From: Cordylochernes scorpioides
Taxonomy: Eukaryota > Arthropoda > Arachnida > Pseudoscorpiones > Chernetidae
Length of the DNA: 64,000 nt
Assembly: GCA_030710605.1 (NCBI GenBank)
Contig: CP092865.1
Span: forward strand, 143,949,081 to 144,013,080
Direction of reading: 5' to 3'
Part shown: positions 28,501 to 34,500 of the stretch, piece after piece
How positions within the stretch are numbered: the first letter of the stretch is position 1
Layout: every line of letters starts with the position of its first letter
Notes under the pieces: model-generated
What the model saw: the letters and a program-made list of their open reading frames with translations, nothing else
What the model was told of the DNA's origin: nothing
Databases searched by the model: none
Position numbers and translations under genes: made by a program

Positions 28501-31500
28501 GCAGGCCGACTTAGCTCCAAAAGAAATGATCGCCTCTGACATGAGGAACAGACACCATGTGCAGCCGCTCCTAATATGGAGTACAAACGCTGCTCATCCT
28601 GTATCCCTGGATTAGGAGCCCTTACAGGGTACTATCAGCCGGGCCAGCTGAACCCAGGTTTTTTAGTGAGCTTGTTACTGCTCCCCCTCCTCCTTTTTCA
28701 TCCGGGCTTGGGACCGGCATCATTTCATCAAAACCACAAATGAATTAGCCAAGTAAATACAATAGAAACTCTCTGTTGGAGAGCCAACATGTCCTTTAGG
28801 TGTCTCCTTAATGGAGAGCAGCTAAATAGTAAAACTGAGTCTAGCCTCAGTATCAGTATAAAAGGAAAACTGAAAAATGCAATATCACAGCGGTATGGTA
28901 GATTTAACTGGAAAAACCGCTGGGAGGGTTCACCACTGATGAGCCAGCTCCTCCCACTATTTTATCATTGCAGTAAGGGCAGTAGAAAATAGATATAATT
29001 TAAAAAGAATCATGCGTGTCAAAAAATAGTTCAAATAAATTATAACAGATGATTCGCTAATGCATCATATAAATAGTAAAATAAAATACAGTAGACTCTC
29101 CTATAACGCCAGTTTTTACAACGCGATAAAAAAAATTGCGACAAATTTATTTATACAACGCAAATTTTCCTATAACGCGTTATAAAATAAATTGCGGAAA
29201 TTTCCTTATTGACAACTGTACAATACAATTGCATATAAAATAACATTTAGTTTTGTTTTAGTATATAATTATACAACGCAAATTTTCCTATAACGCGTTA
29301 TAAAATAAAATGCTGAAATTTCCTTATTGACAACTGTACAATACATTTGCATATAAAATAACATTTAGTCTTGTTTTAGTATATAATTATACAATGCAAA
29401 TTTTCCTATAACGCGTTATAAAATAAATTGCGGAAATTTCCTTATTGACAAGTGTACAATACATTTGCATATAAAATAACATTTAGTTTTGTTTTAGTAT
29501 ATAATTATACAACGCAAATTTTCCTATAACGCATTAGAAAATAAAATGCGTAAATTTCCTTATTGACAACTGTACAATACATTTGCATATAAAATAACAT
29601 TTAGTCTTGTTTTAGTATATAATTATACAACGCAAATTTTCCTATAACGCGTTATAAAATAAATTGCGGAAATTTCCTTATTGACAACTGTACAATACAT
29701 TTGCATATAAAATAACATTTAGTTTTGTTTTAGTATATAATTATACAACGCAAATTTTCCTATAACACGTTATAAAATAAATTGCTGAAATTTCCTTATT
29801 GACAACTGTACAATACATTTGCATATAAAATAACATTTAGTTTTGTTTTAGTATATAATTATTTTTCCTATATACATCATTTTATACAATACATTTTTAC
29901 ATGATATTTGTCACTAACAATTTACCCTAACAACATTCGCGTTATACAAGTTTTATTTCGTACAACGCGATTTCATACAACACGGAACACATTAATCACG
30001 TTATAGGAGAGTTTAGTGTAGTCATTTTGGTGATATCAAAACTATCCTCTATAGAGAGAAAGGTGTCCTCTCATAGAGGTTCTACTGTTATTTATTTTCC
30101 AAAACACATGGCCATTGGATGTATGGTGCACATCTTAATATATAAAATATACACACAGCAATAACGCGCCATCTATATAAAAAAATGAAAGGATTTAAGA
30201 CACGAATGTTTCTTTTATACACAATACAAACTTCTACTGTCCTTACTGCGATGAAAAAATATATTGGGAGGGCTTGGCTAATCAGTGGTGAACCCTCCCA
30301 GCAGTGTCGCTATTTCACCTCTTTCCCATCAAAACTAGACACCATCTATTGACCATCCCCTAGCAGACTCAGGTCGGGTGACGAAGCTACAACACAAGTT
30401 TTGTCACTGACTTGAGTGCTAGTTTATGGAGAGGGTAACTAGATGACGTCTAGTTTGATGGGTGAGGTGGGACCTTTATTTTTATTGATCAATATCCTCC
30501 CGGAAAAATTTCCATTTATATCTTCTTCTTTCTTATCTCCACTCAATCATATTAGGGTGTCAAGATTGTAAAGCTTGAGATCATGATTGGGTGAAGTAGA
30601 ATGTGTTTGCCTTTGTCATTAAGACTGGGAACACTATCCATCTATATTAATATATATAGAGCTACTTGGAAACTAACTTTGTATGACCCCTAAAATAATC
30701 TGACATAACCCACCTCTAAAGAGAGATTACCTCAGAAGAGGCTAGGAATAACTGATTTCCCCTTAGTCTACGGTCTCTCTCCAAGTTTTCCTATATATTA
30801 CAAATAAAAATATATACAGTAAAACTTTTCTGTGAAGGACAACACCTAATTGCAGAGCAAAAGTGTCCTTTATGAAGAAGTGTCCTCTTACAGAAGAGTT
30901 GTTAAATAGTAAAAATGACAATTTTGACAATGAAAACTGTTTGTTATAGAAGGTGTCCTCTCACAGAGGTTCTACTGTATATTACAATAGAAGGAATCAT
31001 CAGATATCATTTCTAAGAAGAGATAATGGTGACACAAGAAAGGTTTTCTTTATTAAAAAAAGATTCATATATCAAAATTCAAAACTATTATAGACGCGTA
31101 TTATTCTTTTTTAAAAATAAATAATTTCTACTGTCCTTACTGCAATGGAAAAATTAATGGGAGGGCTTGGCTCATCAGTGGTGAACCCTCCCAGAGGTTT
31201 CGGCAGTTTAATCTACCACACCGCTGTTATATTGCATTTTTGGAACTTTCTTTTATAGTGATACCGATGCTAGACTCTTGGAATGGGTATTTTAGATGAA
31301 CTATGGACATAAGCTTTGTGTGTGTGTGAGGACAGTAGAATTACATACATTCATAAATATAAAAAATGGCATATCCTGACCAGGAGCACATGTGCTTTAC
31401 AGAAGGCAGAGCGCCATCTGGTGGAACAGAAATCAACTAAACATTGATTTAGCCTGTTCCCTGATATTTGGCCAACCCAATTTCTTGATAAATCAAGAAA

Positions 31501-34500
31501 AGCCATCCACGAACGCGTTTCGCGCTTTTTGGCGCTCGTCAGCGTGGAATAGGCTGAACCATTGAGACCAAAAAAGATTTTTTGATCCCAATGGCTTCCT
31601 GAAAAACCAAGAAATGGGTATTTAAGGCCAAACTTGCGTAAATACGCTTAGCACATTAAAAAACGAAATAAAAAAATAAAAGATAAAAAGATCAGGTGTT
31701 GAAATCAATATAAAAAATGGCATATCCTGACCAGGAGCACATGTGCTTTACAGAAGGCAGAGCGCCATCTGGTGGAACAGAAATCAACTAAACATTGATT
31801 TAGCCTGTTCCCTGATATTTGGCCAACCCAATTTCTTGATAAATCAAGAAAAGCCATCCACGAACGCGTTTCGCGCTTTTTGGCGCTCGTCAGCGTGGAA
31901 TAGGCTGAACCATTGAGACCAAAAAAGATTTTTTGATCCCAATGGCTTCCTGAAAAACCAAGAAATGGGTATTTAAGGCCAAACTTGCGTAAATACGCTT
32001 AGCACATTAAAAAACGAAATAAAAAAATAAAGATAAAAAGATCAGGTGTTGAAATCAATATAAAAAATGGCATATCCTGACCAGGAGCACATGTGCTTTA
32101 CAGAAGGCAGAGCGCCATCTGGTGGAACAGAAATCAACTAAACATTGATTTAGCCTGTTCCCTGATATTTGGCCAACCCAATTTCTTGATAAATCAAGAA
32201 AAGCCATCCACGAATGAGCTATTTATATTAGCTATTAATATCAGCTATTCCACGCTGACGAGCGCCAAAAAGCGCGAAACGCGTTCGTGGATGGCTTTTC
32301 TTGATTTATCAAGAAATTGGGTTGGCCAAATATCAGGGAACAGGCTAAATCAATGTTTAGTTGATTTCTGTTCCACCAGATGGCGCTCTGCCTTCTGTAA
32401 AGCACATGTGCTCCTGGTCAGGATATGCCATTTTTTATATTGATTTCAACACCTGATCTTTTTATCTTTTATTTTTTTATTTCGTTTTTTAACATTCATA
32501 AATATGTATTCAGCCTGTTGAAGGACATTATTGTCTGAAAACTCGCAAAGCTTATATTTTTTAATAAAGAAGTTCATCACCATTAGCTTTTATCTCTTCT
32601 GTAAAAAAATAATACAGTAAAACCCCGCTAAGACGAACCATGGATATAACGAACCTTCCCTTATAACGAACCCATCGAAAATCCCAATTCCATTCCATTA
32701 AAATTACCATCGCTATAACGAACTTTTCACTTTTCAAACTAGCGAACTATCGCTATAACGAACCCAATTTTGGTCCCAAAATATTAAATTCTATCAAAAA
32801 TACCATGCTTATAACGAACTTTTAATTTTAATTCTAAAATTCCAAAATTATAATTTTCAAAACTAATTAAAATTTTGTGTGAGCTCTAGCTCACAGATCG
32901 CAATTCAAAACAAAGAATTTAGCGACATTGTGTGTTTTTATTCACGTTCTATTTTTATACTGCGCACTTTTATAAATTTTTCATGCCTTATTGAAAACTG
33001 AATTTCTTAACTCTACATTAGGAAAATTCCTTAAAAATGATTAAATTATTAAAACCAGTTTTAAAAGATAATGGAAGTGCCAAAGAAAAAGTCGCTCGTA
33101 CCAAGATATCACTTGAAAAGAAATTAACCATCATAAAAGCTATTGAGAGTGGTACATCGCAAGCGGAACTTAGGAAGAAAATGAAAATGAGCAAAAGTAG
33201 CATTTCTACGATATGGCAAAAAAGAAGACTATAAAAAAAAAATGCTACAAAGATTAATCAATCCCAACTATTGCCGCTATCGTCAGTGTCATTATACACT
33301 TTTAGAAGAAGCCTTGTATACGTGGTTAGTACAAGCTAGGCTTCATTTTAAAAAATGAAGATTTCTTTGCTAGATATGAAACCAAATTTTTGAGGAATAT
33401 GTTAAAGCAGAAAAAAATAACAGACTTCTTCAAGTAAGCCTTTGTATCCTATATTGTAATATAATAATATTTATTTAAAATATATTTTTATACCTTTTAA
33501 AATATTATTAATAAAGTTTTTATTTAATTTTTATAAATAAGGTATACTTTTCTTGGATTTTTTTGACATATGGGGGGCAGGTTGCATTTATACTAATTAA
33601 ATAATCAGAGGAACTGATCAAAAAGGCAATATTTTCATATGATTTTGTTTTTATTTTAATATACAGCTTTAATATATAGAAATAGGTTAATTTAGGGGGA
33701 AAAAAGCAGCCAATATTAAGAGGTAGCCTTTTTTTTTATTTTTTTTTGCGCGTGCCCTTTAATTATATCCTAAAAAAAATTAAATACCCAAACCGTGGCT
33801 ATAGTGAACCAAAAGTCCCGTCCCAATGGGGTTCACTATAGAGGGGTTTTACTGTATATAGCTATCTAGAATTGACATGTTGTAATCCCACTGCATATAG
33901 TAGTGTATTTTTATTTCTGTTTTTCCCTTTACTTAGGTCAGGATTATTGGCCTAAATGTGAATTGAATCCCTTAAGACCTACCTCTTCATTAAATGATAG
34001 CGCCAGAGGCATGTTAACCTTCAATAGCTTCAACATAAGCCAACAACTTACACTAATGATATTCTCTCTCTTTATAACTTTAAACTATTTATTTGATTCT
34101 TTTTAAAATAAGCCAATTTTCTACTACCCTTACTGCAGTGATAAACATAATGGGAGAGCCTGGCTCACATTCTTGTTTATTAAGTATGTGGGCGGTGAAG
34201 TCAGGGAATTAACACAAGCTCAAGGTTCACATTATTGTTTATTAAGGTTACCTTGATATTAAGGTCTCCAACCTCAAGAGTTCTTTAAAGAGCTTAATGA
34301 ACCTAGCTGAATGTACCACTTCTATCCATTTTAGTGTGAGGCAGGGTTGATTCTGTGCGTACGACAATGAGAGAAGAAGTATGTGGGCGGTGAAGACAGG
34401 GAGGATGACACAAGCTCGGGCAATTCTCCAGGCCTGGCTGCAGGCCAAAGCCCAGTATAGCACAGCACCGCTGCCCCAGTCAGCCTTTGTTACACCCCCG

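Follow-up and report, generated by a model that had tools for sequence, protein, structure and literature searches.

The insertion at positions 31347-32505 of the analysed window, a stretch of 64,000 nucleotides from the pseudoscorpion Cordylochernes scorpioides, is, judged by its sequence, a member of a new family of animal (non-LTR) retrozymes. Members of this family are very probably non-autonomous elements which pass through a circular RNA and are reverse-transcribed from both nicked strands of the target by the machinery of Penelope-like elements (PLEs). The segment forms a single insertion that consists of a minus-strand tandem array, a filler and an inverted copy, enclosed by a perfect 14-bp target duplication. 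Its parts are:

31347..31360, no strand: left target-site duplication ACATTCATAAATAT, the last 5 nt of which also belong to the element's u155 end
31356..32214, minus strand: minus arm, about 2.45 tandem units (a partial, a 351-nt and a 350-nt unit)
31501..31555, minus strand: type I hammerhead 1 (HH9 match 31492-31558), predicted cut between 31512 and 31511
31852..31906, minus strand: type I hammerhead 2 (HH9 match 31843-31909), predicted cut between 31863 and 31862
32215..32244, no strand: 30-nt filler at the head-to-head centre, holding AGCTATT repeats
32242..32296, plus strand: type I hammerhead 3, of the inverted arm (HH9 match 32240-32305), predicted cut between 32285 and 32286
32245..32492, plus strand: plus (inverted) arm, u311 to u207, about 0.7 unit
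32492..32505, no strand: right target-site duplication ACATTCATAAATAT, a perfect copy of the left one

The retrozyme unit measures 351 nt and has a GC-content of 39%. In the repeat analysis of the window, direct repeats of 300 bp appeared at spacings of 351 and 350 bp, the third copy being truncated, and the inverted arm (248 nt) was an exact complement, pairing 31656-31903 with 32245-32492. The initial annotation had described two tandem units of about 350 bp plus an inverted copy; this layout was borne out, whereas the count was slightly low, given the approximately 2.45 minus-strand units and the 30-nt filler. The 14-bp duplication that it had placed at both outer edges is indeed present. 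The minus arm has its outer (3′) end at u155/156 and its inner (5′) end at u350, at most 2 nt from the predicted cleavage site. The plus arm additionally carries a 'tail', u156-u207 at 32441-32492, which is absent from the outer end of the minus arm. The filler resembles the outcome of end-joining with templated insertion and may thus reflect repair. Among open stretches of at least 90 aa in the array, the longest reaches 120 aa. A Pfam scan of window frames identified USP7_C2 at 12556-12945 on the minus strand, USP7_ICP0_bdg at 20158-20631 and MATH at 39901-40191. As these USP7 domains lie on both sides of the insertion, its proposed location in a USP7 intron is retained; exons of the USP7 catalytic domain were not located by the Pfam scans, which were aimed at the longest window frames.

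A permissive Rfam scan of positions 30000-34000 yielded three HH9 matches in the insertion (36.6-38 bits, E-values from 2.9e-7 to 8.5e-7), all of which fall below the HH9 gathering score of 52, and a default scan of the window at the gathering threshold listed no hammerhead. The three cores, initially annotated as identical, have identical 25-nt core matches. The predicted cut of hammerhead 1 on the minus strand reads GUU^CGUGGA. Stems I and II and the conserved core are present. For a putative loop 1-loop 2 tertiary contact, stem I offers an internal loop of 3 nt/1 nt and loop II the sequence CAAAAA. Stem III is tiny, being either A-U and C-G closed by 2 nt or a single pair closed by CGCG. 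Among the aligned hammerhead cores, which comprise those sharing this stem layout and not the differently built 54758/L043 hammerhead family, 96.9% of stem cells are paired, and five stem pairs are changed on both sides in four cores that were picked by hand and include two close variants. The core also recurs in other genomic copies, with 137 of 155 hammerhead-scan matches being identical to that of the window insertion, in a scan which finds only cores retaining CTGANGA and GAAA. The retrozyme identity holds, as does the target duplication.

A search of the genome with the unit, in which scores were computed for 40 of 791 first-look candidates, gave at least 204 scored matches that are 95-100% identical among the approximately 150 listed. 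With so many near-identical matches, the observation in the window is more than chance. For the counts below, 38 insertions were examined, L029 having been dropped beforehand as a segmental duplicate of L030. Degraded or partial further matches which flank the fetched loci, for example in L011, L012, L019, L023, L033, L037, L040, L041, L042 (8805-9137) and L043, were not counted as insertions. Thirty-three of the 38 insertions are two-armed, all of them head to head, and five are one-armed. The inverted copy, which the initial annotation had treated as a detail, thus recurs in 33 of 38 insertions.

Such a recurring inverted arm points to the type of integration. Every one of the 33 two-armed insertions combines one u155-type end (u139-160) with one u208-type end (u204-210), counting as u155-type the left end of L017, where the alignment stops at u139 beside an AT-rich insert. 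At the level of single nucleotides, 49 of 64 scripted outer ends are at most 1 nt away from 155 or 208 and 15 lie farther off. Among the listed matches to exact-end patterns, a u208 end lies no more than 10 kb from 14 of 20 u155 ends; these 14 pairs are all outward-facing and none pairs like with like (chance approximately 0.13), 12 of them are new loci, and an exact u208 partner is missing for the remaining six u155 ends. The targets are mostly (AT)n. The target duplication of the window insertion has counterparts elsewhere, since duplications of 12-14 bp were found at eight insertions outside pure (AT)n. The lengths of the two arms of an insertion show no significant correlation (Spearman 0.20, p = 0.28).

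Twin priming gives an inverted segment plus a duplication. A LINE which moves the retrozyme, with the inverted arm arising by twin priming as in L1, would likewise leave such a product. LINEs have been named as candidates alongside PLEs (PMC7229834). This reading is disfavoured, and we regard it as very improbable, as 33 of 38 insertions carry the inversion and use each of two fixed start sites a single time, and as the outer ends lack poly(A), TTTTTTATAT and CGTTTTTTAAT directly adjoining the target. Furthermore, PLE fragments of the window likewise pair a short end with a tail end, which has been published as a trait of PLEs (PMC11167929; accessible part of PMC3846280). A single chance event of twin priming as the source of the inverted copy was rejected as well, because the minus-then-plus order occurs in many insertions.

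The same genome contains a full PLE locus, the only one available for comparison, in which two arms that are 99.5% alike lie head to head, one being short and the other extending 111 nt further, with both ends adjoining (AT)n. This PLE, which we take to be Naiad-like, has an N-terminal GIY-YIG; the Pfam match of its 828-aa frame is to GIY-YIG alone (E = 0.01), and the motifs GVPMGTSSSP and YVDD presumably mark the reverse transcriptase. Within the window, 19 of 21 pairs of PLE 5′ fragments are of the short-plus-tail type, where a tail means a reference position of at least 109, and seven of the 21 have 12-14-bp duplications. This count covers 18 pairs of minus/plus neighbours picked by hand from 62 stretches, with some edges set by hand, and three clusters added later (6862-7180, 16610-16766 and 39551-39873), all of them short plus tail; singletons and the cluster at 46.0-46.6 kb are excluded. 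One example is:

19518..19738, no strand: two PLE 5′ fragments placed head to head, with the short end on the left, the tail end on the right and the 14-bp duplication TACATATTTGTAAA

The repeat CTGAAGATGG...GAAACGTC was considered as a separate hammerhead family and is better read as 5′ fragments of PLEs, in which a minimal hammerhead sits at the start codon. The 351-nt unit is too short for a GIY-YIG endonuclease and reverse transcriptase frame, and the retrozyme is not itself a PLE. A blastn comparison of the unit with the one full PLE locus, including the surroundings of the start sites, returned short AT-rich matches alone, apart from a neighbouring retrozyme, and no PLE family was matched to the retrozyme by sequence in this one-locus comparison.

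The variants within insertions bear on the copied form. At sites with at least three copies, 38 variants are common to all copies, two are partial and 49 are private to one copy, whereas 300 shuffles gave means of 1.2, 55 and 185, respectively (L028b, L029, L047 and copies aligned over fewer than 20 bases excluded). Such a shared-or-private pattern is as expected if each array were a copy made round one monomeric circle. In addition, 10 of 68 inner ends, entered by hand with L029 and L047 omitted, fall at the predicted cleavage site (u348-u2), the maximum over all six-nt windows (p = 2.5e-7); this window was chosen after inspection of the ends, and p is still about 1e-4 when multiplied by 351 windows. 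Four of these ten ends (the window insertion, L012, L038 and L040) carry two extra nucleotides (u350), and 58 of the 68 inner ends lie away from the site.

PLE machinery could also take as its template a linear, multimeric RNA transcribed from an existing array. The multi-unit arms of the window insertion and L038 end at the cleavage site, which one processed end would give likewise, and new arrays, being homogeneous, would have homogeneous transcripts. This template is nevertheless unlikely: existing arrays do hold private variants, yet partial ones are nearly missing, in none of the arms of the aligned insertions was a copy of a head-to-head centre seen, and the longest arm reaches 4.8 kb or 13-14 units (L042). 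A satellite DNA, or a palindromic DNA element, that spread through recombination or DNA transposition with the hammerheads as passengers would account for tandem repeats with near-perfect inverted arms. We consider such an origin hardly credible, given the dispersed single insertions with fixed ends and target duplications, the covarying ribozyme stems and the enrichment of inner ends at an RNA cleavage site, which spread at the DNA level does not predict.

In the favoured mechanism, copying of a circle by PLE machinery, an array would be transcribed and its type I hammerheads would cut the transcript into 351-nt monomers, at a predicted position of which the inner ends bear the imprint. The monomers would then be closed into circles; we infer this production of circular RNA from the arrays. 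In an AT-rich target, often (AT)n, a PLE enzyme would nick the two strands at positions 12-14 bp from each other, and both 3′ ends would prime reverse transcription at different internal sites of the RNA, near u155 and near u208, with one use of each site in a two-armed insertion. By strand displacement, each polymerase may run round the circle, as the homogeneity of the copies suggests, and thereby build two opposed tandem arms. Joining of the arms head to head, via 1-8 nt of microhomology or filler, would create the target duplication, and some arms would stop where the polymerase ran off a 5′ end made by the ribozyme. We lean slightly towards a more specific version, in which one RNA circle is read simultaneously by two PLE polymerases, one per nicked strand, from start sites 53 nt apart. 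If so, a single RNA circle would give rise to the two head-to-head arms of a tandem array, and the absence of like ends from all 33 two-armed insertions would follow from start-site exclusion on one RNA molecule, a rule that may also apply to PLEs.

Animal non-LTR retrozymes resemble the present family in their type I hammerhead, tandem repeats of about 150-450 bp, low GC-content, duplications of more than 4 bp and a genome that also holds PLEs (Cervera and de la Pena 2020, PMC7229834). The arrays described here differ in that they come as head-to-head pairs in which a short end is matched by a tail end; that study never uses the word 'inverted' in its main text. The hammerhead repeats of newt and axolotl are similar by description, with a unit of about 330-350 bp, and helix III of HHR_Amex1 consists of one pair and a palindromic tetraloop (PMC7229834), a description which the CGCG of the retrozyme fits. 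Plant LTR retrozymes are likewise non-autonomous, with hammerheads in their repeats and, according to the accessible part of PMC4918200, circRNA intermediates like those presumed here, but they have type III hammerheads, LTRs, PBS and PPT and 4-bp duplications and are thought to be mobilised by Gypsy elements (PMC7229834). In the sequence and repeat analysis of the present insertion, no LTR, PBS or PPT was noticed.

The likeness to PLEs lies in the ends. PLE pLTRs are described, in the accessible part of Arkhipova et al. 2013 (PMC3846280), as inverted head-to-head copies with a tail that is optional on one of them. A PLE cuts and extends both strands, prefers AT-rich targets and uses two adjacent internal start sites with a 'tail' in between, and a hammerhead is present in the Anolis PLE as well (Frangieh et al. 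2024, PMC11167929); one PLE assayed in vitro inserted without need for hammerhead cleavage (PMC11167929). The retrozyme differs from PLEs in having no GIY-YIG/reverse transcriptase frame and in arms made of tandem monomers. The cited literature leaves open both the mobilising enzyme of animal retrozymes, for which PLEs are named merely as a strong candidate (PMC7229834), and RNA circles as the copied form. Both questions are addressed here from DNA alone, by a PLE-type start-site and tail signature at the insertions, by arrays that look like rolling copies of one monomer and by a fraction of ends which records the predicted ribozyme cleavage. The PLE-like insertion ends suggest a PLE as the mover and RNA circles as the copied form. 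The exact start sites, target and product given here could serve a reaction with a purified PLE and are relevant to PLE integration.

Two further hammerhead-bearing segments lie downstream in the window:

54582..55084, minus strand: second, older hammerhead element, with its core at 54735-54758 on the minus strand and inverted arms at 54598-54682 and 54962-55046
55085..55760 (limits approximate), minus strand: degenerate older relative of the main retrozyme, with its core at 55532-55555

The second element has GTATAAATATATA at both edges, 54582-54594 and 55072-55084, as judged by eye. The degenerate relative adjoins the right duplication of that element and is interrupted by another repeat.

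The hammerhead array that the initial annotation had described at 31347-32505 is present in the window and its reading as a retrozyme-like insertion stands; the inverted copy, which weighed less there, is the main result here. It belongs to a new retrozyme family, which is ordinary in kind and whose insertions are unusually informative. The unit is taken here as the 351 nt that separate two successive predicted cleavages (its sense strand is the minus strand, and numbering starts with the C of CGTGGATGG as u1), and arms denote runs of tandem units; the insertion is composed as follows.

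31347-31360: left target duplication
31356-32214, minus strand: minus arm, u350 to u155/156, about 2.45 units, one unit being 350 nt long
32215-32244: filler between the arms
32245-32492, plus strand: plus arm, u311 to u207
32492-32505: right target duplication

The insertion is flanked by the MATH exon (39901-40191) of a USP7 gene on one side and its C-terminal exons (USP7_ICP0_bdg, 20158-20631; USP7_C2, 12556-12945) on the other, so that the claim of a USP7 intron holds. All three domains were identified by Pfam on the minus strand, exons of the catalytic domain not being among the hits. The longer arm points in the sense direction of this gene. Directly left of the retrozyme lies a MITE-like repeat (31126-31340) with the inverted ends TTCTACTGTCCTTAC / GTGAGGACAGTAGAA, a second copy of which (about 55235-55451) is found within an old, degenerate retrozyme relative. 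Directly to the right, 32615-32830 contains recurring (T)ATAACGAACC motifs resembling a transposon end, and 8115-9332 holds remnants of a Mos1/mariner-type transposase (HTH_48, Transposase_1, weak DDE_3).

The three hammerheads of the insertion match Rfam HH9 (E 2.9e-7 to 8.5e-7), their 36.6-38 bits being below the gathering score of this family (52). Stem I is formed by AGCC-TAT-TCCACG / CGTGGA-T-GGCT and stem II by GCGC-CAAAAA-GCGC, while stem III is minimal. In four hand-picked related cores, two of them close variants, 96.9% of the 16 stem pairs were formed, and in five pairs both sides had changed; when the stem partners were slid by 1 to 3 columns as a control, at most 36% of pairs formed. 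When the window and the fetched loci were scanned for hammerheads with a method of our own, which detects solely cores retaining CTGANGA and GAAA, 137 of 155 hits had a core identical to the window's. The predicted fold of the unit RNA has -118 kcal/mol (z -7.2). The element at 54582-55084 represents a second hammerhead family; its arms are inverted, both of its edges carry GTATAAATATATA, and it has relatives at three fetched loci (L032, L043, L023).

A search of the genome (2.62 Gb, 24 contigs) with the unit, in which 40 of 791 first-look candidates were scored, yielded at least 204 scored matches. The sample studied comprised 35 loci fetched around listed matches, one locus beside a Penelope-like element (PLE) and the window's own insertion; with L029 dropped as a segmental duplicate of L030, L028 counted as three elements and degraded partial matches in flanks excluded, this amounts to 38 insertions. 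Two arms, whose sense strands diverge from the centre in every case, were present in 33 of them, and a single arm in five (L012, L015, L019, L025, L033). On their outer (3′) side the arms end near u155 (TTTTTTATAT) or near u208 (CGTTTTTTAAT), 53 nt apart, 49 of 64 scripted ends being at most 1 nt away from either site. Each of the 33 two-armed insertions (32 tabulated and L037) combined a u155-type with a u208-type end; the left end was of the u155 type in 18 and of the u208 type in 15, and none of the 33 had two like ends. Joined to (AT)n, the target of most insertions, the u155 end pattern was found 1460+1618 times with up to 2 mismatches (reversed control: 304+295) and the u208 pattern 4203+4170 times (reversed control: 953+956). 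Within the reach common to both exact-match lists (contigs C1 to C2:79.2 Mb), 20 exact u155 and 100 exact u208 ends gave 14 pairs within 10 kb, about 0.13 being expected by chance. All 14 were unlike and outward-facing, two of them being loci studied before (L024, L047); considering exact partners alone, 6 of the 20 u155 ends lacked a u208 partner. This one-each rule suggests, as our boldest reading of the sequences, that both polymerases may share a single RNA molecule, or else a dimer that offers two distinct sites.

Eight insertions in more complex targets (the window's, L009, L010, L014, L021, L023, L026, L036) have target duplications of 12-14 bp. At the head-to-head centres the arms overlap by 1-8 nt or are separated by 0-30 nt of filler, and once by 108 nt. 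Insertions adjoin at AT-rich edges at L047 (C1:8995713-8996796), where a retrozyme lies within the (AT)n that follows the plus arm, at its 3′ end, of the full PLE described below, and at L028.

In an alignment of 226 complete or partial unit copies, which represent 36 insertions, variants from the consensus (sites with at least 3 copies) were shared by all copies of an insertion in 38 cases, restricted to one copy in 49 and present in some copies in 2, compared with means of 1.2, 185 and 55 when the copies were shuffled between insertions 300 times. The counts were 61, 90 and 13 if gaps were included and the 3-copy limit was lifted; a single 8-nt deletion accounts for eight of the last group. 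Ten insertion-wide variants occur in no other insertion, and L042 carries one of these in 21 of its 21 copies. Of 62 measured arms, 49 are longer than one unit. The simplest template would be a single monomeric circle for each insertion, although a linear multimer of homogeneous units may have served instead. Around the predicted cut (u348-u2) 10 of 68 inner (5′) ends are located (expected 1.2, p 2.5e-7), in a six-nt window chosen after these ends were seen, which has the highest count of any such window, overlapping ones reaching up to 9; the remaining 58 lie away from the cut. This enrichment fits reverse transcription run-off at ribozyme-made 5′ ends. Four of the ten ends at the cut, those of the window's insertion, L012, L038 and L040, have the same two extra nucleotides past it (u350), perhaps due to non-templated addition or a shifted end.

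PLEs of the same genome were compared. Of 150 candidates scored in the GIY-YIG family search, 146 matched, several as minus-then-plus pairs a few kb apart. A full PLE (C1, about 8983196-8995698) is head-to-head with 99.5% identical arms; its frame of 828 aa has a GIY-YIG domain at the N-terminus and what we take, by eye, to be RT motifs. Its plus arm terminates in ...CATAGCTATACTAT and its minus arm extends 111 nt further, to ...CAATTACTATTAATAT, each followed by (AT)n; at this single locus the sequence thus has one short and one tail end (tail being the extra stretch) and a retrozyme-like target type. A dispersed repeat of the window, in which an open frame starts at the ATG of a minimal hammerhead (CTGAAG-ATG-G...GAAACGTC), reads as PLE 5′ fragments. 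These fragments form 62 stretches (6862-64000), many as head-to-head pairs, with two ends at about +74 and about +102. Examples and the two rule-breaking pairs are as follows.

17771-17924: PLE 5′ fragments
19518-19738: PLE 5′ fragments
39551-39873: PLE 5′ fragments
53101-53303: PLE 5′ fragments
56556-56756: PLE 5′ fragments
62289-62560: PLE 5′ fragments
45021-45268: tail+tail pair, 9-bp match at the edges
7746-7956: short+short pair

Of 21 head-to-head fragment pairs, 19 are short+tail, the other two being the short+short and the tail+tail pair listed above; duplications of 12-14 bp accompany seven of the 21 (mismatched-pair control: at most 11). As in the Anolis PLE, whose frame starts at stem II and contains the start sites according to PMC11167929, the frame of these fragments begins at stem II of the hammerhead. 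The same paper describes that the PLE tested cuts and extends both strands from two adjacent internal starts, that the tail is the sequence separating these starts, and that the hammerhead is dispensable for insertion in vitro and cut solely with protein added. For PLEs, PMC3846280 describes pLTRs that are inverted, a head-to-head order and a tail that one pLTR may optionally bear. Animal retrozymes, their circRNAs and their self-cleavage are likewise described, with PLEs as strong candidate mobiliser (PMC7229834). In the literature covered, mainly main texts and passages of open papers, we found no description of retrozymes that are arranged head to head and start at paired sites. The sequence shows divergent arms, two starts of which each is employed once, homogeneous copies, duplications, cut-site enrichment and, in PLE sequences of the same genome, this signature again; in the mechanism we propose, RNA circles would serve as template, a PLE protein would act in trans, strands would be displaced during copying and the centre would be closed by end-joining.

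The unit also contains CCACCAGATGGCGC at u88-101, located by string search only, which we take to be a fit to the CTCF core consensus; a dispersed element with a CTCF-like site could matter for chromatin.
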